64,000 nt of DNA from Limnobacter alexandrii (lineage in GTDB: Bacteria > Pseudomonadota > Gammaproteobacteria > Burkholderiales > Burkholderiaceae_B): NCBI RefSeq assembly GCF_005871185.1, contig NZ_SWKN01000006.1, positions 1,094,451-1,158,450 on the forward strand, read 5' to 3'. The notes below the pieces were generated by a model. The model searched no databases. It had not been told where the DNA came from and worked only from the letters and a program-made list of their open reading frames with translations. The stretch's first letter is position 1, and the number at the start of each line of letters is the position of its first letter. This document shows positions 25,796 through 56,921 of the stretch, piece after piece. The translations under genes and the position numbers were made by a program.

Positions 25796-26446
25796 GTGGC
25801 CACTTACACCGTCAAAGAGATGTTTTATACCCTGCAGGGCGAAGGTGCCCAAGCGGGGCGCGCGGCTGTGTTTTGTCGTTTTGCTGGGTGCAACCTGTGG
25901 ACGGGTCGCGAAGAAGACAGGGCCACCGCAGTTTGCAAATTCTGCGACACGGACTTCGTGGGCACAGATGGCGTGGGCGGTGGCAAGTTCAAAAATGCTG
26001 AAACACTGGCCAAGGCAATCGCCGACACTTACCAGGGTGGTGTTGGTACAGGCGTGCCGTATGTGGTGTTCACCGGCGGAGAGCCCACCTTGCAACTGGA
26101 TGCGGCATTGATCGAGGCTGTGCATGCCCAAGGGTTTGAGATCGCGATTGAAACCAACGGCACTTTGCCGGTGCCAGCGGGTGTTGACTGGATTTGTGTC
26201 AGCCCGAAGTTTGGCAGTGAACTGGTGCAAACCTCAGGACAGGAATTGAAAGTGGTGGTGCCCCAGCTGGGTCAAGATCTGGATGCCTTGGGGCGACTGA
26301 ACTTCGCGCATTATTTTGTGCAGGCCATGGACGACGCAGACCCTGTGAAAAAAACCAAAAACATGCAGGTGGCCATTCAAACCTGCCTGAACAAACCCCT
26401 GTGGCGTTTGAGCGTTCAAACCCACAAAGTGATCGGAATGCCATGA
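25796..26446 (+). CDS. queE: 7-carboxy-7-deazaguanine synthase QueE
   Basis: Radical SAM ring contraction of 6-carboxytetrahydropterin to 7-carboxy-7-deazaguanine in queuosine synthesis. The 216-residue protein starts with a GTG at 25796. It shows the variant cluster motif C32-x14-C47-x2-C50 (GCNLW then CKFCDTDF), an arrangement known from Burkholderia-type QueE, as well as YTLQGEGAQAGRAAVFCRFAG at the N-terminus and FTGGEPTLQ and IETNGT further on. The queD homologue overlaps its stop by 4 bp. Confidence 0.95.
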   Translation: MATYTVKEMFYTLQGEGAQAGRAAVFCRFAGCNLWTGREEDRATAVCKFCDTDFVGTDGVGGGKFKNAETLAKAIADTYQGGVGTGVPYVVFTGGEPTLQLDAALIEAVHAQGFEIAIETNGTLPVPAGVDWICVSPKFGSELVQTSGQELKVVVPQLGQDLDALGRLNFAHYFVQAMDDADPVKKTKNMQVAIQTCLNKPLWRLSVQTHKVIGMP

Positions 26447-26793
26447 AAGTTTTCAAACAATTTACCTTCGACGTTGCACATCAATTGCCAGACTGGCCAG
26501 GTTTGCATGGTCACAGCTACACAGCCGAGGTGTGGTTCGAGGGCCCAGCCACGGATGGTTATGTGGTGCCTGAAAGTTTGTTGAGCACACAGGTGGGGGC
26601 GGTGCACAAAAAGCTGGACCATTCGTATTTGAATGAATTCATTGAGATGCCGACCTCGGAAAACATTGCCCGCTGGATTTGGGACCAACTGCGCCCTGTG
26701 GGGCCTTTGGTCAAAGTGAAGGTGTTTCGTGGGTCTATCGGGTTTGGGGTTGAGTTTGACCTTGAGGATGCGAAGGCGGAAGGCAGAGCGTGA
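26443..26793 (+). CDS. queD: QueD-like 6-carboxytetrahydropterin synthase homologue without catalytic Cys
   Basis: A 116-residue T-fold protein of the QueD/PTPS family. Zinc ligands are kept (H13 in FDVAHQLP, H22 and H24 in LHGHSY), as are the Asp-His pair (D59, H60 in KLDHSYLNE) and PTSENIARWIWDQLRPVGPL. The loop that in E. coli QueD carries the catalytic Cys (HKCGRLHGH) is shortened to DWPGLHGH, and the protein has no cysteine at all. The pterin-anchoring Glu near the C-terminus also appears replaced (VFRGSIGFG where E. coli has VKETCTAG). Context with queE argues for a queuosine role, but the usual mechanism cannot operate. Confidence 0.85.
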   Translation: MKVFKQFTFDVAHQLPDWPGLHGHSYTAEVWFEGPATDGYVVPESLLSTQVGAVHKKLDHSYLNEFIEMPTSENIARWIWDQLRPVGPLVKVKVFRGSIGFGVEFDLEDAKAEGRA

Positions 26794-26811
26794 CGGTGTA
26801 GCTTCTTGCCA

Positions 26812-27316
26812 CCTCGGCGTGGGTTACTTGTGCCGCCTGTCATTGGTGATTTTTGAGCTGAACTTGAAGGGTCACCGCTGCCCGAAAACTTGGCATATCG
26901 ACTTGTCAGCTTGAGCCTGCACTAAGCCAAGCCCTCCAAAAGTAACGGTCGGGTCTTGGCTTTCGCGCCAGGGCGCGATCGCTTGTCTCGGCGCGCCAAG
27001 CCGGCAAGTTTTCTGACCGGTCATCGTGCGACCCATTGCAAGTTCAGCTCTGCGTCACCGCAGGGTTCACCGCCCAATCGGCGGCGGTGTTTCGATCGCC
27101 TCGCCTTCAAGAAAACCTGCCCGTTTGAATTCACCCGCCACGGTCGGCCGAAGGCCGGCACCGAGACTCGGCCCGCCTTTTTGCCGAGCGAGGTGAGTCA
27201 GGGTGAATCTCAAAAAGGGAAAACCAGGTTTTCAGGCGAGAGATTGGAACCCAAGCCGAGTGGGCGATTAAGAAGCCCCGAGAGATTGAAACCCAAGCCG
27301 ATCGGGCAGTTGACCG
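26812..27316 (+). repeat. Dispersed structured repeat, locus A (between convergent queD and GGDEF-EAL gene)
   Basis: About 505 bp closely matching locus B (49.4 kb): the first ~240 bases align with few mismatches, A then lacks roughly 37 bases present in B, and similarity resumes through the hairpin core. The 5' part contains AAGCCAAG/CTTGGCTT around the conserved AAAGTAACGGTCGGGT and a near-palindrome TCGCGCC-AG-GGCGCGA. The core hairpin (27102-27238) is followed by two degenerate tail units containing ACCCAAGCCG (27249, 27291). No gene is seen in 26794-27340; a short frame extending queD-side reading into the repeat is shared with B only because the DNA is repeated. Confidence 0.9.
27102..27238 (+). 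repeat. 137-nt three-way-junction core, copy A
   Basis: Outer stem: CGCCT/AGGCG, GAAAACCTG/CAGGTTTTC, CCC/GGG, then TTTGA/TCAAA with ATTCACCC/GGGTGAAT. Inside are a small hairpin (CGGCC-GAA-GGCCG) and a larger one (CACC and CTCGGC pairing with GCCGAG and GGTG, T-rich loop). The same fold is found in copies B, C1 and C2 with compensating stem changes. Confidence 0.85.
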
Positions 27317-27340
27317 GCAGGCGAGCGGACGGTCAAGTGC

Positions 27341-29737
27341 TTATGCCAGAATTTTCTTGGCCTTGTCGCTGGTAATTTGCTGGGCCCACACAAACTGGCG
27401 TGAATCATCCGCGGTCATTGGTCTGGCCAAGCCAAAGCCTTGCAGTTCTAGCACACCCGACTCAATCAAAAAGTCTCGTTGCTCGGCGGTTTCAACCCCC
27501 TCGGCCACCACGCCCAAGCCCAAGGCCTGGGCCATTGCCAACACGGTGCGCGACAAAATAACGCTGTCGGTTTTGTTGGGCAGGTTGCTGACAAATGAGC
27601 GATCCAGTTTGATGGATTGAACCGGCATCCGGTGCAGGGTGGCCAGTGATGAATAACCAGTGCCAAAGTCGTCGATCGACAAGGAAACGCCAAGTTCATG
27701 CAAGCGGTTCAGGTCGTGCAATACGGTTTCCTGATTCTGCATCAACACGGTCTCAGTCAGCTCAAGTTCGAGTAGCTTGGGTGGCAGGCCTGTCAGTTTC
27801 AGTACCTTTTCAACTGTGCCGCACAGCTTGCCATCCAGCAGTTGAATTCCCGAGACATTCACTGAAACGCTAATCGGATTCTTCAGTTTTTTGTTGGTGT
27901 CTTTCAGCCATTTGCAGGCCTTGCGCATCACCTGCTCGCCCATCGGAATGATTAAACCGGTTTCTTCGGCAATCGGAATGAACTGTGCCGGTGGAATCAA
28001 TTCACCCGTGCGTGAACGCATGCGCGCTAGGGCCTCAACCGAGCAAATAGAGCCATTGGCGCTAAAGCGTGGCTGGTAGTGCAATTCAATTCGGTCATGC
28101 AAAATTGCATCGTGCAAATCGTTTTCCAGGTCCACCTTGGTTTGCAGGGTGGCGCTCATATTGGCGTGGAATACGCGCACGGTGTTCTTGCCCGCCTGCT
28201 TGGCTTGGTACATGGCAATGTCGGCATGTTTCAGCAGGCCTTCTACATCAGTGGCGTCAGTTGGAAATAACGCGACCCCCACAGAGGCACCCACATAAAT
28301 TTTCTTCTCGCCCAGCTCAAACGGTTTTTTGCTGACTGCATCTACCACCTTTCGGCCCACATTGAATGCAGTGTCCTGGTCGGCAATGTAAGGCAGGGTA
28401 ATCACAAATTCATCGCCCGACAATCGGGCCACAATGTCTGAGTTTCGCACCACGCTGCGCAAGCGTTTGGATACGGCAATTAGCAGATCATCGCCACGGT
28501 CATGGCCCAGCGTGTCATTCACCGCTTTGAAACCATCCAGATCAATAAACAGCAGGCCGAGTTTGAAATCCTGAACCTGGTCATTGCCCAGCAATTCTTG
28601 CAGGGTTTGCGACAAAGCCAGGCGGTTCGGCAGCCCCGTGAGTGGATCGTGTGTGGCTTGATGGCGCATTTTATTTTCGTTGCGCTTGATTGAACTGATG
28701 TCGGTGAAGAAAATCGAAATCAGTTCTTCACTTGGGTAAGCCTTCACCTGGTACCACATGTCATTGGCGGGGTCTTGCCACTGAAAGGTCTCTGGCTGCA
28801 TGCTGCCTTTGGCCTGATTCACGTACTTGAACAAGGGTGTTTTTTTCAAGTGGGGTGCGCGTTCCCAAACCATGCGACCCAACAACAGCGCTGCGGTTTT
28901 GCCCAGCAGTTCTGCACCTTTTTCATTCAGGTAATTCACATAGCCGTTCATGTCGATGGCGAAAAAAGCATCGTCCATCGATTCGAGGATGTTGTTGATT
29001 CTCTCTTCGCTTTTCAGCAAGGCTTCTTCAAGATGAATATTGCTGGAACGCCCAATCAGCAAAATGTCAGCGCCAATGCAGGCTGCTGTCCAGTCGAAGT
29101 AAACCACATCATTGAAGGTGTTGCGCAGGCGAAAAGAACCATCGGTGGAACCAGTTTGGTATTTCACCTGATCAAGCAGCCGCTTGAACTGGCCCACATC
29201 GGTGCGAAACACCAGGTTCGCGGCATCCAGGTTTTCCAGTTGTGCGCTGCTTTGGCCTAAAAATTCTTCCAGCGATGGGCTTAGTTTTTTGATTCGTCCT
29301 TTGTCGTCCACATTCAGCAAGACACTGGTGGGAATTTTCTTGTCTGTGCTTTCGGCGGGCTCAAGGCGTTGTTCAGGCGTAGTGGTACCGGAAAACGGGG
29401 AAGGCGATTGGGCCAGCTTGGCATTGTGTTCCTGGAGTACGCCAAACTCACCGTGGGCCAGCATTTGTAAACGCAGCCATTGCTGGTCTACTTTCACATG
29501 GCCGGTCCAGCCTTGTTGTCGACGCAGTGCATTGGACAGTGCCCGATAAATTGCCATGCCGTAACGGTTCACAATCAGTTCACTGCCTGATTTGAATCCT
29601 AGTTCTTGCCGAAACAGTTTGCTCGCAGCAATCAGGCTGAGTTCTTCGCCCACATGCCCCAACAGCGCATAACGTGCATTGCCACTGTCCAGCAGTTCAC
29701 TGATCAGTGGATCGTCAAGAACATTGCTCAGGCTCAT
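27341..29737 (-). CDS. PAS-GGDEF-EAL c-di-GMP protein
   Basis: A 798-residue cytoplasmic protein. After an N-terminal ~130-residue region of unknown fold come two PAS-like domains (about 140-235 and 245-360), a GGDEF domain and an EAL domain. The GGDEF signature is SGDEF with an RNSD inhibitory-site motif upstream. The EAL domain is complete (VEALARM, VNVSG, LTETVL, IDDFGTGYSSL, IKLDRS, AEGVE, LQGF). Both activities are therefore plausible. Its start overlaps the stop of the upstream membrane sensor by 4 bp, so the sensor may control it. The stop adjoins repeat locus A. Confidence 0.9.
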   Translation of the reverse strand: MSLSNVLDDPLISELLDSGNARYALLGHVGEELSLIAASKLFRQELGFKSGSELIVNRYGMAIYRALSNALRRQQGWTGHVKVDQQWLRLQMLAHGEFGVLQEHNAKLAQSPSPFSGTTTPEQRLEPAESTDKKIPTSVLLNVDDKGRIKKLSPSLEEFLGQSSAQLENLDAANLVFRTDVGQFKRLLDQVKYQTGSTDGSFRLRNTFNDVVYFDWTAACIGADILLIGRSSNIHLEEALLKSEERINNILESMDDAFFAIDMNGYVNYLNEKGAELLGKTAALLLGRMVWERAPHLKKTPLFKYVNQAKGSMQPETFQWQDPANDMWYQVKAYPSEELISIFFTDISSIKRNENKMRHQATHDPLTGLPNRLALSQTLQELLGNDQVQDFKLGLLFIDLDGFKAVNDTLGHDRGDDLLIAVSKRLRSVVRNSDIVARLSGDEFVITLPYIADQDTAFNVGRKVVDAVSKKPFELGEKKIYVGASVGVALFPTDATDVEGLLKHADIAMYQAKQAGKNTVRVFHANMSATLQTKVDLENDLHDAILHDRIELHYQPRFSANGSICSVEALARMRSRTGELIPPAQFIPIAEETGLIIPMGEQVMRKACKWLKDTNKKLKNPISVSVNVSGIQLLDGKLCGTVEKVLKLTGLPPKLLELELTETVLMQNQETVLHDLNRLHELGVSLSIDDFGTGYSSLATLHRMPVQSIKLDRSFVSNLPNKTDSVILSRTVLAMAQALGLGVVAEGVETAEQRDFLIESGVLELQGFGLARPMTADDSRQFVWAQQITSDKAKKILA

Positions 29738-48991: not shown

Positions 48992-49360
48992 GTGACTGAC
49001 TCAACCAACAACGCCGCCGCTGGCGACGAACTTGTACTGCCTTCTGGCGTGAAGCTGACTTTCAAAAAGCGCGGCACCGGCACGCAAAAGCCAACACCCA
49101 ATTCAATTGTGGAAGTGCACTATGAAGGTACATTTCTGGATGGTCGGGTGTTCGACAGTTCGATCAAGCGCAATGAGAAAATCTCCTTTCCGTTGAACCG
49201 CGTGATTCCTGCCTGGACACAGGCTTTGTGCGAAATGGTGGTTGGCGATCGGGCAATCGTGTTCTGCCCGTCTGACACTGCATATGGCGCGCGTGGTGCA
49301 GGTCCGATTCCGGGCAACACCGACTTGGTGTTTGATGTTGAGTTGTTCGACATCCGATAA
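48992..49360 (+). CDS. FKBP-type peptidyl-prolyl isomerase
   Basis: A 122-residue cytoplasmic rotamase, starting with a GTG at 48992. The FKBP core is evident: VEVHYEGTFLDGRVFDSSIKR, PLNRVIPAWTQAL and PSDTAYGARGAGPIPGNTDLVFDVEL. No signal peptide, unlike FkpA. Its stop lies 12 bp before repeat locus B. Confidence 0.93.
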   Translation: MTDSTNNAAAGDELVLPSGVKLTFKKRGTGTQKPTPNSIVEVHYEGTFLDGRVFDSSIKRNEKISFPLNRVIPAWTQALCEMVVGDRAIVFCPSDTAYGARGAGPIPGNTDLVFDVELFDIR

Positions 49361-49372
49361 GGTTTTCTGCCC

Positions 49373-49968
49373 ACTCGACGTGGGTTACTTGTGCCGCATG
49401 TCACTAGTGACTCTTGATCTGAACTTGAAGGGTCACCGCTGCCCGAAAACTTGGCATCTCGTCTTGTCTGCTTGAGTCTGCACTAAGCCAAGCCCTCCAA
49501 AAGTAACGGTCGGGTCTTGGCTTTCGCGCCATGGCGCGATCGTTAGTCTCTGCGCCCCAAGCCGGCAAGTTTTCTGACTGGTCATCGTGCGACCACTTGC
49601 AAGTTCAGCTCCTGAGTCACCGGCACCAGCGTCTCTCCACCACCGCGCAACTCACCGCTGGGTTCAACGCCCAATCGGCGGCGGTGTTTCGATCGCTTCG
49701 CCTTCAAGAAAACCTGCCCGTTTGAATTCACCCGCCACGGTCGGCCAAAGGCCGGCACCGAGACTCGGCCCGCCTTTTTGCCGAGCGAGGTGAGTCAGGG
49801 TGAATGTCAAAAAGGGAAAACCAGGTTTTCAGGCGAGAGATCGGAACCCAAGCCGATCGGGGCAGTTAACGAACCGTCGAGAAAGCGGAACCCAAGCCGA
49901 TCGGGCAGTTAACGAACAGTCGAGAAAGCGGAACCCAAGCCGATCGGGGCAGTTAACGCGCGGTCGAG
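49373..49968 (+). repeat. Dispersed structured repeat, locus B (between convergent FKBP and TVP38 genes)
   Basis: About 595 bp. The 5' module (49373-49690) matches locus A and includes AAGCCAAG/CTTGGCTT around AAAGTAACGGTCGGGT and the palindrome TCGCGCC-AT-GGCGCGA. The core hairpin is at 49699-49835. Three near-identical 43-44 bp units follow and run to the TVP38 stop codon. No gene seen in 49361-49972. Confidence 0.9.
49699..49835 (+). repeat. 137-nt three-way-junction core, copy B
   Basis: Same stems as copy A. The small internal hairpin reads CGGCC-AAA-GGCCG and the larger one pairs CACC/GGTG and CTCGGC/GCCGAG. Confidence 0.85.
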
Positions 49969-49971
49969 AAA
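49842..49971 (+). repeat. Three tandem 43-44 bp tail units of locus B
   Basis: CGGAACCC begins at 49842, 49886 and 49929, each unit continuing with AAGCCGATCGGG, CAGTTAACG and GTCGAGAAAG. Unit differences are single bases and one G insertion. Confidence 0.9.
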
Positions 49972-49972
49972 G

Positions 49973-50662
49973 CTAAGCCGCCTTTCGCAGTTGAAACTGC
50001 CGCGTTCCCCAAGAAATGAGAAACGGCACCAAAGCCAGCGCTGCCAGAGAAACAAGCACTTCCAGTGAAATCAATTCTTCCAGCCGGTTTACTTTGGATA
50101 ACTCATTGCCCGCATTCACATACAGCATGGTGCCTGGCAGCATGCCCAGAAAACTGGTCCACAGGAATGTCCACGGCTTTACACGCGTCAAGCCAGCCAG
50201 CAAATTGAATGCAACAAATGGAATGATGGGGGCCAGGCGCAGGCTCAGCAAATAGGCCACTTCGTTTTTCTCAATGCCCTTGTTGATGTCGTTTAGCTTG
50301 TTTGAAAAACGGTTTTCAACCGATGACCGAAAGAAGTGCCGGGCAAACAACATGGTGAGCAAGGCACCCAAAGCCGAGGCTGCTGTGGACACCACCATGC
50401 ACAAGCCAAACCCCATGCAACCACCACCCACCAGCATCAGTACCCCTGCGCCCGGTAGGCACAAGGCGGTGATCAATACAAACACGCCAAAGTAAATCAA
50501 GGTGACCAGCGTTGGGTTGTCCATAAAATGCATGGCCAATTCGCGCTGTGCCGCCAGCATGTCTTGCAGCGACACATCTGCACTCAACCACACCAGCATC
50601 AGCACGGCTGCAACCAGCAGCAGTGTGGTTTTCCTCCAGTGTTGTTGAACAGCTTGTGGCAT
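49973..50662 (-). CDS. TVP38/TMEM64 (VTT-domain) membrane protein
   Basis: A 229-residue DedA-superfamily protein with about six hydrophobic segments. The core motifs are FVLITALCLPGAGVLMLVGGGCMGFG and LRLAPIIPFVAFNLLAGLTRVKPWTFLWTSFLGMLPGTMLYVNAG. The superfamily is linked to lipid scrambling and small-ion transport. Located immediately downstream (11 bp) of the SelD fusion on the same strand, hence probably co-transcribed. Confidence 0.85.
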   Translation of the reverse strand: MPQAVQQHWRKTTLLLVAAVLMLVWLSADVSLQDMLAAQRELAMHFMDNPTLVTLIYFGVFVLITALCLPGAGVLMLVGGGCMGFGLCMVVSTAASALGALLTMLFARHFFRSSVENRFSNKLNDINKGIEKNEVAYLLSLRLAPIIPFVAFNLLAGLTRVKPWTFLWTSFLGMLPGTMLYVNAGNELSKVNRLEELISLEVLVSLAALALVPFLISWGTRQFQLRKAA

Positions 50663-54119: not shown

Positions 54120-55313
54120 ATGCAATCAGCCCAAGAAACCCCTGCAATCCAATGGATCAAAGGTGATGAAACCTTCAGTGCGCGCTGGCAGTCGGAGCGC
54201 AATTTGGCGGTACCTGCCAAGGTGATCGTGGCTGACGACACCCTGACCGCCGACATGGCTTACCGCCTGGCTTGCGAGGGCAATGTGTTTTTGTGGCAAA
54301 GCGACTTTCAAAATGCTCGCCAGTTGATGCAGGCCTTGGTGCGCCGTGTGGACAAAAATGCCGAGCACAAGAAAAGCAAAGCAGCCAAAGCGAACAAGGC
54401 TGATGTTGAATATCCCCAGAAATTTCACCTCTACCGTCAGACCCAGGCCCAGCGTGCGCGAATTCTTGGTTCTATCCTGATTCCCCTCAATGCCGACTAC
54501 AGCATTCCCTTGCGCCGCGCACCCGATGTGCTGGCGGCCTGCACGGAAGCGTGGGGCGAGCCGCAAGCTGAAGGCCCAATGATTGTGACTTCACTGCGCG
54601 AAATGATGGGCGTGGTGGGTGCGCATGAGTGGCGCAAAAAGGGCGTGGACGTTCCCGCCCTTGGTGATCCGCCCAATAACCGCATTCATCCGTATTACGG
54701 CGTTTTCTCGCCAGTGCGGGGCGAGTATATTGATTTGGTGCTGAAAGCGCCTTTGCCCAAAGCCTGTGAAGTGAATGGCTCGGCAGTGGATGTGGGTACG
54801 GGCACTGGAGTGTTGGCTGCAGTGCTCGCCCAGCGTTGGTTAAGTAACATTGTGGCCACCGACAACGACCCACGCGCACTGGAATGCGCGCAATTCAATA
54901 TTGAGAATTTGGGCATGGGCAAGCAGGTGAAAGTGGTGCAAGCCGACCTGTTTCCTGACAGCAAAGCCGACTTGATTGTGTGCAACCCGCCTTGGTTGCC
55001 TGGCAAACCCACCTCACCGATTGAACGCGCCATTTACGACGAAAACAGCGGCATGCTGAAAGCGTTTCTGGCTGGTTTGGCTGCGCATTTGAATGCAGGC
55101 GGTGAGGGCTGGTTGATTTTGTCTGACTTGGCAGAGCACCTGAAGCTGCGCACGCGGGAAGAGTTGCTGGGCTGGATTGAGCTGGCAGGTTTGAAAGTAT
55201 TGGGCCGGCTGGATGCCAAGCCCAAGCACGGAAAAGCCTTTGATGCGAATGATGCGCTGTTCGATGCAAGGTCGAAGGAAGTGACCAGTTTGTGGCGATT
55301 GGCGGCTGCGTGA
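54120..55313 (+). CDS. Class I SAM-dependent methyltransferase with NPPW motif
   Basis: A 397-residue protein, divergent from senB by 106 bp. The C-terminal half is a Rossmann methyltransferase: motif I VDVGTGTGVLAAVLAQRW, ATDNDPRAL, and the NPPW catalytic loop CNPPWLPGKP (residue about 288), as in amide/N-methyltransferases such as PrmB/PrmC and some rRNA enzymes. The N-terminal ~180 residues include a Lys-rich segment (KKSKAAKANKA) and match nothing I recognise. Substrate unknown; location next to senB is suggestive only. Confidence 0.75.
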   Translation: MQSAQETPAIQWIKGDETFSARWQSERNLAVPAKVIVADDTLTADMAYRLACEGNVFLWQSDFQNARQLMQALVRRVDKNAEHKKSKAAKANKADVEYPQKFHLYRQTQAQRARILGSILIPLNADYSIPLRRAPDVLAACTEAWGEPQAEGPMIVTSLREMMGVVGAHEWRKKGVDVPALGDPPNNRIHPYYGVFSPVRGEYIDLVLKAPLPKACEVNGSAVDVGTGTGVLAAVLAQRWLSNIVATDNDPRALECAQFNIENLGMGKQVKVVQADLFPDSKADLIVCNPPWLPGKPTSPIERAIYDENSGMLKAFLAGLAAHLNAGGEGWLILSDLAEHLKLRTREELLGWIELAGLKVLGRLDAKPKHGKAFDANDALFDARSKEVTSLWRLAAA

Positions 55314-55405
55314 GCCGACGTGTGCTTTGTCGCTTAATCAGCGCACGTTGTATCGCTTAATCGACGGGTACGCTATCACTTAATCGTCGCGCATCCCAAT
55401 GCGTT

Positions 55406-55542
55406 CGCCTGAAAACCTGTAAATCCCTTTTTGAAATTCACACTGACTCACCAAGCTTGGCAAAAAAGATGGCCAAGCCTTGGTGTCAGCCTACGGCTGA
55501 ACGTGGCGTGTGAATTCAAACGGGCAGGTTTTCTTGAAGGCG
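55406..55542 (-). repeat. 137-nt three-way-junction core, copy C1
   Basis: On the minus strand: CGCCT/AGGCG and GAAAACCTG/CAGGTTTTC as in A and B. The inner hairpins are TCAGCC-GTA-GGCTGA and CACCAAG plus CTTGGC pairing with GCCAAG and CTTGGTG; in A and B the same positions are CACC, CTCGGC, GCCGAG and GGTG. Both sides of each stem changed together. Confidence 0.85.
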
Positions 55543-55703
55543 AAACGATTGGGACATCGCTGCCGATTGCGCGATAGGACGGTGACGGATTAACCGGACA
55601 GGTGTGTAACAAGAACACCCAACACCCGTTGATTCGGCGGGTGGTGTTAGGTGACCCGCGGCTCCCCGCGCTTTCGCCAACTCGGCAGTGGGTTTGCCTG
55701 TTT

Positions 55704-55843
55704 CGCACATTCAAGAAAACCGCCCCGGTTTGGATTTATTCGTAGCGTTTGGCTTTAAGCCAACACCGAGGCTCGGCCATGTTTTTTGCCGAGCTCGGTG
55801 AGCAAGAATTAATTCAAAAAGGGATTAAGCGGTTTTCTGTGCG
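55704..55843 (+). repeat. 140-nt three-way-junction core, copy C2
   Basis: The outer stem is CGCACA/TGTGCG and GAAAACCGC/GCGGTTTTC, replacing CGCCT/AGGCG and GAAAACCTG/CAGGTTTTC. Inner hairpins: TTGGCT-TTA-AGCCAA and CACCGAG plus CTCGGC pairing with GCCGAG and CTCGGTG. Confidence 0.85.
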
Positions 55844-55949
55844 AAATCGGGCAACCCCGTCGAGGTGGCGAACGAAGCTGGCGACTCAAAATCGTCAACC
55901 CCGCCGAGTTAGCGAATGAAACAGGCAACCCCGCCGGATTGGTTGCCGC

Positions 55950-56921
55950 TCAGGCCGCCGCCCAAAACACCGCAAACTTCTGTTCCGGATCGGTATACGC
56001 CTTGCAAGCACCGAAGCCAGCCCGCTTTAGCAAATCTTCAAACCCGGTCAGTGTCCATTTGTAAGAGTTTTCAGTGTGAATGCGTTCGCCTTCCACAAAG
56101 GCACGCTCTCCGCCTTCCCACTGAACCACCACATCCCGTAGCGCTTCAAGGTGCATTTCAATCCGGTTCAGTTCGGCGTTGTACAGGCCAATGTGTTTCC
56201 AGTCTTCCAGTTTGAAATTGGTGCCTGCCAGCGTGTTGAAGTGCAGCAGCATATTGCGGTTAAATGCGGCTGTTACGCCCAAGGCGTCGTCGTAAGCCGC
56301 TTCAAGTACAGCCTTGCTTTTTACCAGGTCAACACCAATCAACAAGCCACCACCCGTGGCTGTGCCGCACACGGCATGCACCTGTTTCAAAAACAGCAGC
56401 GCCTCTTCAGGCGTGAAGTTACCAATGCTGGAGCCCGGGTAAAACATCACCCTGGGCTGCGCGGGTTTGAGCGCCAAACCAGCGGGCAAGTTGAGTTCAC
56501 TGGAAAAGTCCAGGCCGACACCCGCCATTTCCAGCTCGGGGAATTGCCGCTGTAGGCATTCCAGCGAACCTTTCAAAAAGTCCACGGAAATATCCACAGC
56601 CACATAGCGTGCAGGATGAAACACATTGAAAAGTTTGGCTGCCTTTTCACAATTGCCCGCACCCAGGTCAATGAACACAGCGCCTTTGGGAACCTGGCGC
56701 GCCATGTCATGGCCGTGGCTGTCGAAAATCAGTGCTTCTGTGCGGGTGGGGTAGTACTCGGGTATGCAGGTAATTGCTTCAAACAGTTTGGAGCCCAGTT
56801 CGTCATACAGGTATTTGGGTGAGGTGTGCGCTTTGCTTGCACGCAGGCCACTGAGCAACTCTTCCCGAATGTGTTCGGCTTGTGCTTGGTAGATTTGTAT
56901 GAATTGTGGTGTTGGGTTCAT
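55950..56921 (-). CDS. egtD: L-histidine N-alpha-methyltransferase EgtD
   Basis: Trimethylates histidine to hercynine, the precursor of ergothioneine and selenoneine. The 323-residue protein shows KYLYDELGSKLFEAITCIPEYYPTRTEA, DLGAGNCEKA, FYPGSSIGNFTPEEA, GVDLVKSKAVLEAAYDD and the C-terminal NSYKW with FGACKAYTDPEQKFAVFW, all EgtD landmarks. It lies 25 bp downstream of the second PhnE-type permease on the same strand, with no terminator between, so it is probably the last gene of that transporter operon. egtB/senA is not in the window. Confidence 0.94.
   Translation of the reverse strand: MNPTPQFIQIYQAQAEHIREELLSGLRASKAHTSPKYLYDELGSKLFEAITCIPEYYPTRTEALIFDSHGHDMARQVPKGAVFIDLGAGNCEKAAKLFNVFHPARYVAVDISVDFLKGSLECLQRQFPELEMAGVGLDFSSELNLPAGLALKPAQPRVMFYPGSSIGNFTPEEALLFLKQVHAVCGTATGGGLLIGVDLVKSKAVLEAAYDDALGVTAAFNRNMLLHFNTLAGTNFKLEDWKHIGLYNAELNRIEMHLEALRDVVVQWEGGERAFVEGERIHTENSYKWTLTGFEDLLKRAGFGACKAYTDPEQKFAVFWAAA

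Follow-up and report, generated by a model that had tools for sequence, protein, structure and literature searches.

Two-ended Elements with Three-Way-Junction Ends in Limnobacter: A Tentative REPIN-like Family

Limnobacter genomes carry a family of intergenic elements with two ends of unlike class, set in inverted orientation, each end built on a core of about 140 nt whose consensus fold is a three-way junction. We tentatively read the family, with confidence a little below even, as non-autonomous, REPIN-like and putatively mobile, the ends being three-way-junction hairpins lengthened by imperfect stems. The family is marked by strict pairing of the two end classes, by stems that covary across relatives, and by the exchange of single ends at sites that species have in common.

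Results

Paired cores in the window

The window, a stretch of 64,000 nt from Limnobacter alexandrii, had been described in a sequence-only reading as holding four copies of one structured element. All four cores are present where that reading placed them, and a covariance model gives them 134 to 162 bits, though the two copies near 55 kb (at 55406 and 55704) match by construction, since both are among the 33 cores from which the model was built. The model identifies six cores rather than four, the two missed earlier being minus-strand matches of 33 and 37 bits, and the six form three inverted pairs in which a minus-strand core on the left and a plus-strand core on the right have their 5′ ends facing each other. 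Rather than solo copies of one element, the cores are the ends of two-ended elements, each of which joins an end of class I to an end of class II, with tandem units at a spacing of 42 to 44 nt outside several ends and, in a few relatives, genes between the ends. All three elements in the window lie between convergent genes (Table 1).

Table 1. Coordinates of the three elements in the window (bits from covariance model R1; z from DNA folding of the lone core).
Feature	Position	Strand	Details
Element 1, entire intergenic stretch	26794..27340		Convergent genes 26401-26793 (+) and 27341-29737 (-) flank it
Element 1, class II end, type D core	26879..27021	-	33.2 bits, E 5e-5; z -3.1, 1/200 shuffles equally good; type by pattern
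Element 1, class I end, type A core	27102..27238	+	151.9 bits; z -7.5
Element 1, outer units beside class I end	27237..27307	+	29-nt repeat, two copies, 42 nt apart
Element 2, entire intergenic stretch	49361..49972		Convergent genes 48992-49360 (+) and 49973-50662 (-) flank it
Element 2, class II end, type D core	49440..49582	-	37.4 bits, E 4.7e-6; z -4.0
Element 2, class I end, type A core	49699..49835	+	152.4 bits; z -7.6
Element 2, outer tandem units	49834..49948	+	Three copies, 43-44 nt spacing
Element 3, entire intergenic stretch	55314..55949		Convergent genes 54120-55313 (+) and 55950-56921 (-) flank it; a pair of large hairpins forms over 55340-55910 (z -11.6)
Element 3, class I end, type A core	55406..55542	-	161.5 bits; z -8.0
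Element 3, spacer between ends	55543..55703		Orthologous G015 element holds two genes here
Element 3, class II end, type B core	55704..55843	+	134.2 bits over 55706-55842; z -8.1

Fold and covariation

The 33 cores behind the model come from the L. alexandrii genome and its relatives and include both copies near 55 kb; genome searches with it return many more copies in this genome and in relatives. The proposal that the stems are kept by compensated changes is borne out by the covariation test. When one copy supplies the complete structure, pairing holds in 92.5% of cells across the 33 sequences, and 24 of the 44 pairs change on both sides (mean of shuffles 13.1). The covariation score reaches 0.241 compared to 0.104; none of 500 shuffles reaches any of these three values, and sliding the structure along the alignment gives at most 0.061. 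The picture is the same for 144 distinct sequences in an alignment fitted to the model, where 93.2% of cells pair, 38 of 44 pairs have changed on both sides, and the score is 0.397 compared to 0.128 (0/500 shuffles; slid structure at most 0.062). RNAalifold, applied to the 33 sequences, gives 32 pairs, 19 of them with compensated double changes.

Covariation within the window itself rests on few independent copies, owing to the near identity of the cores at 27102 and 49699, and it is the sequences of relatives, rather than the window copies, that carry the case. The claim of one shared fold stands for the consensus, which is a three-way junction shown by covariation, but not for every copy folded alone, the GC-rich copies at 27102 and 49699 having a lowest-energy fold with other inner pairing. 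As lone DNA copies, the four cores first described fold with z of -7.5, -7.6, -8.0 and -8.1, and the two added cores with -3.1 and -4.0. Inner and outer arms lengthen the core stem, and the folds are stable on both strands.

Some unpaired letters, such as the T run of the loop and, next to the outer stem, T6 and A8, are near-invariant amid many variable stem columns. On average, though, conservation is no higher in unpaired columns (mean entropy 0.85, compared to 0.76 for paired columns). In the larger alignment the core strand has 133 G-T pairs compared to 68 A-C mismatches, the shuffled counts being 388 and 358; the asymmetry is weak in the smaller alignment (28 to 23). This excess mildly favours the core strand, without separating RNA from DNA.

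Among letters that hardly change, a bulge of 5 nt on the 3′ side of the outer stem varies strongly (window 55420-55424 on the minus strand, and the equivalent position of other class I cores): 136 cores have 38 different 5-mers, some of them common to core types A and C. We considered the bulge as a target guide and rejected the idea: in eight tests on the 136 cores, each with 60 permutations, seven results fell within the permuted range, and the eighth, which counted complementary 4-mers 13 nt inside the foot of the core, lay just above it (13 compared to a permuted maximum of 12).

Two end classes and their spread

The outer stem sorts the cores into class I (types A, C and G) and class II (types B, B′ and D). 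There are 78 distinct (-,+) pairs less than 400 nt apart, and each of the 75 with both ends classified joins a class I end to a class II end, the other three having one end unclassified; this count took in all loci retrieved, treated orthologous pairs separately, and left 31 of 297 pattern matches unclassified. Neighbouring cores within 400 nt occur in no orientation other than (-,+). The exception lies beyond that distance, in G002, where a pair 1,055 nt apart (L215, 1501-1624 on the minus strand and 2680-2804 on the plus strand) has the outer stem and bulge letters common to both ends and paired inner stems that are wholly different. This is perhaps an older state.

Using one core as a BLAST query gives 44 matches in the L. 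alexandrii genome (E up to 10, some of them short), and another core gives 35 (E up to 1). Reading the loci yields 32 elements, and typing by pattern yields 56 cores, the rules being hand-made and liable to miss diverged ends. Of the 32 loci, 24 hold a complete pair whose spacer is 84 to 171 nt long, and the remaining eight have one typed core; in two of these eight there is a further end, type E, which has the same layout in unrelated sequence and of which five examples were folded in all.

The complete, single-contig relatives G015 and G004 have 88 and 44 cores. When an element was searched together with its flanking genes, 11 of 16 genomes of the genus returned 34 to 63 matches each, four (G001, G002, G007 and G013) returned 1 to 3, which are possibly the flanking genes, and the incomplete G008 returned none. 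In G002 the model locates two cores, with a third adjoining one of them. Among 300 genomes of the order, searched under stricter filters, matches are confined to two of Limnobacter (L. alexandrii and G002). Element 3 (window 55280-55960) has no match among phage and plasmid records, and the single match of the outer-stem pattern in viral contigs (L145) was rejected, as it lacks the fold by eye. At least 102 related stretches were listed, from which 19 loci were removed by eye because they matched without the fold, and 83 were kept for the model search and placement counts.

Placement behind genes

Every one of the 32 elements in the L. alexandrii genome is intergenic, 18 lying between convergent and 14 between codirectional genes, with none between divergent genes. 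Much the same holds for 67 elements in related loci (42 convergent, 23 codirectional, 2 divergent), and both divergent cases (L050 and L065) adjoin a cargo gene of the element itself; other gaps in these loci, which were chosen for holding a core and in which orthologous sites are counted more than once, number 240 codirectional, 68 divergent and 35 convergent. In the window, which was chosen without regard to placement, an element occupies three of four convergent gaps longer than 80 nt and none of nine divergent gaps.

Such placement, taken with loci largely common to species and folds that are stable on both strands, would suit an element maintained by the host at gene ends, whose hairpins would work at the RNA level, limiting read-through or exonucleases where convergent or tandem genes have their 3′ ends, and whose copies would be homogenised by gene conversion. 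We regard this as doubtful. Intrinsic terminators are not above shuffles (2 compared to 1.3; 0 compared to 1.1), nor are promoters, and the strict pairing of two classes, the restriction to the genus and the cargo would all be unexpected. REPs and other mobile repeats likewise avoid upstream regions, so the placement of the elements may merely reflect tolerated sites.

At three loci (L026 near 1136, L032 near 1197 and L021 near 1114) the stop codon of the left gene lies in or beside the outer unit of the element (..TGAACTTGAAGG..), as if the unit had been substituted for the gene's own end.

Turnover between species

We compared 14 of the 32 L. alexandrii loci with G004 and G014, and 12 of those also with G005. 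Most sites are common to the species, with end types differing. For instance, the site of L031 in four genomes has the ends B-C, D-C, B-A and D-A, which are all four combinations, and the element at the site of L018 is reversed in G005. Elements are absent from the site of L011 in G004 and G014, from those of L015, L026 and L032 in G014, and from the element 3 site in G004, G009 and G014. Apparent pieces of the outer units are retained at the L026 site in G014 and at the element 3 site in G004 and G009, and these cases are thus read as losses. The empty sites are 75-90% alike to the L. alexandrii flanks, several have remnants, and no target duplication is readable there. In G011 the element 3 site (G011:C6:103777-115033) holds about 11 kb of other DNA, of which only the two edges were read.

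Cores of the same type are barely more alike at the same locus than across permuted loci, with identities of 0.912 and 0.901 (43 pairs, 2,000 permutations, p 0.01). Together with the differing end types at shared sites, this indicates that ends are replaced or homogenised separately. The unit of turnover is the single end and not the whole element, whose jumping is not proved.

The same small difference in identity would be expected of passive palindromes, that is, of old repeats without function that are homogenised by recombination, with template switching in the hairpins copying changes from one arm to the other and so mimicking selection on the fold. Half-changed pairs are indeed few relative to double changes, and decayed or single ends are common (8 of the 32 L. 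alexandrii loci have one typed core). Passive copying would still have to explain why loop and bulge letters stay nearly invariant, and the strand is kept, while many stem columns vary, why class I is joined to class II, and why the five type E examples repeat the layout in unrelated sequence, and we think it quite unlikely.

Genes between the ends

Cargo occurs in three separate loci with both ends and in one one-sided case. At the element 3 site of G015 two genes lie between the ends, one of them C92 YaeF/YiiX-like (1.2e-7). A similar situation is found at the site of L016, an L. alexandrii element without cargo, where the corresponding loci L161 and L065 hold an NlpC/P60 gene (4.3e-16 and 1.6e-16) and a partner, and L050 a broken version of the pair. 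The cargo of G002 is a weakly M15-like gene (E 0.18, below cut-off) whose partner has an in-frame stop. The one-sided case is in G010, where a single core adjoins a decayed pair made up of an Xre-type antitoxin-like piece (0.0019, below cut-off) and, after it, a RES fragment (1.2e-7). The partners in L065, L050 and L153 start with what appears by eye to be a lipobox or signal sequence.

Compared to solved structures, the NlpC/P60 cargo is like LytE and MepS (2e-12 to 1e-9) and the C92 cargo weakly like YiiX (0.003), and the M15-like gene has no match. Every NCBIfam match of the cargo is below cut-off, and PADLOC gives one weak match, taken as chance. From sequence, a fair reading of the wall-hydrolase cargo is as putative effector–immunity pairs. 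The T6SS sheath gene VipB is present in 14 of the 16 genomes (absent from G002 and G007); in G000, G004, G005, G014 and G015 it is separated from an element by about 3.3 to 3.6 kb (G000:C1:343310-344221 and relatives).

Cargo is rare, being found in 2 of 31 joined pairs in G015 and in 0 of 17 in G004, a count that omits one 43-nt match in G004. A joined pair of 3.9 kb in G015 was rejected as a false join, as it encloses ordinary chromosomal genes.

Discussion

Comparison with known systems

The sequence-only reading knew of no family with this layout, and the window indeed has no Rfam match at gathering scores; under permissive settings (E up to 5) element 3 matches two miRNA families, with E of 0.6 and 0.9. 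In the open-access part of the literature we found no description of the element.

The nearest designs are REPINs and MITEs. REPINs and BIMEs with their RAYT are extragenic palindromes in dispersed inverted doublets with a short spacer, as here, and REPINs are thought to move in trans as folded single strands (PMC3116915, PMC2817692, PMC3733652, PMC8266576). REPs are of 20-40 nt, whereas Limnobacter ends are about 140 nt, form a three-way junction, belong to two obligate classes and at some loci enclose cargo. In a direct test for REPs, cores measure 134-146 nt, and of 110 typed cores just one has a GTAG or CGTC tag no more than 12 nt from its foot. RAYT systems have a Y1 transposase, whose profile (PF01797) is found in only 1 of the 16 genus genomes (G012, with contamination of 6%) and gives no match in that of L. 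alexandrii, where controls were positive. Bacterial MITEs such as ERIC, Correia/NEMIS, RUP and CIR are likewise non-autonomous intergenic repeats of about 100-200 bp with long stem-loops; Limnobacter elements differ in having no terminal TA or target duplication that we could see, in their paired branched ends and in the exchange of ends at fixed loci (PMC2229807). Relative to REPINs and MITEs, then, the Limnobacter family differs in size, in its two end classes, in separate end exchange, in cargo and in that its enzyme was not found.

Other systems offer likeness in part. Fold-back transposons and the T-shaped terminal hairpins of rolling-hairpin replicons also have inverted, self-folding, branched ends around variable contents, a likeness of design only; the present elements, unlike them, are bacterial and dispersed, have ends of two classes, and have no replication protein known here. 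The attC cassettes of integrons are long imperfect palindromes kept in structure more than in sequence, and carry cargo of toxin–antitoxin type, as do a few Limnobacter elements. HEARO/IscB RNAs are stand-alone structured repeats in many copies.

That the family is simply one of the last two, an integron attC site or a HEARO/IscB-type RNA, is highly improbable, though both kinds of likeness count towards it, stand-alone copies of HEARO/IscB-type RNAs and toxin–antitoxin cargo in integrons being known, and though the integron integrase profile (TIGR02249) is above cut-off in two of the 16 genomes (G015 and G010). It is not above cut-off in the L. alexandrii genome; matches below cut-off occur in all 16 genomes and in all 14 controls, and are read as other tyrosine recombinases. 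The G015 integrase is about 203 kb from the nearest listed core, and the boxes of its array (GCCTAAC/GTTAGGC) are unlike the cores. An attC identity was thus rejected, the outer stem (GAAAACC..GGTTTTC) being unlike true attC boxes and no integrase lying nearby, and the elements being dispersed inverted pairs rather than an array. The suggested comparison with HEARO/IscB-associated RNAs found no support either: no Rfam model matches, and none of the 16 genus genomes responds to the IscB profile (PF14239), though control genomes are silent too, so that absence of IscB is not established.

The integrase of G015 belongs to a full integron (L216, G015:C1:2428500-2448400) whose array of cassettes has attC boxes; the integrase itself spans 2438434-2439375 (444 bits). 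Shorter integrase matches are seen in G010, G001, G012 and G011.

A REPIN-like reading and its meaning

The REPIN-like reading that we tentatively prefer is favoured by the joining of class I to class II in 75 of 75 pairs and by the sole (-,+) orientation, by covariation, and by the near-invariant loop letters, as well as by the 24 of 32 complete pairs in L. alexandrii, the 88 and 44 cores in relatives, the cargo loci and the excess of G-T pairs. It is weakened by the presence of a Y1 transposase in just 1 of 16 genomes, by the fact that no insertion event was seen, and by sites that are mostly shared and of which several, when empty, look like losses; single-end turnover, the weak strand asymmetry, the G002 pair with the same outer stem and the large majority of pairs that hold no gene weigh in the same direction.

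Under the REPIN-like reading, each end would act as a folded single strand, more probably of DNA than of RNA, and an enzyme supplied in trans would recognise it by its shape and a few unpaired letters. That enzyme, or ordinary recombination between copies, may overwrite resident ends, and toxin–immunity or toxin–antitoxin pairs would at times be captured between two ends. The system would then work like a REPIN moved by a RAYT, but with much larger, unlike ends and a different enzyme. A bolder version, which we think unlikely, would make these elements a new kind of mobile cassette in prokaryotes, with two unlike branched hairpin ends that are recognised by shape as single strands by an undiscovered enzyme, that overwrite resident ends, and that carry toxin–immunity or toxin–antitoxin cargo between gene ends.

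The family provides a large natural set of DNA ends in which sequence drifts while the fold and certain unpaired letters stay, and 11 of the 16 genomes of the genus contribute 34 to 63 matches apiece. Mobile elements of this sort would point to an enzyme that belongs to none of the known REP, attC and IS200 systems; if they are not mobile, they would represent a gene-end element under covariation. Their tie to wall-hydrolase and toxin–antitoxin type pairs suggests a route by which orphan antibacterial genes may enter genomes.
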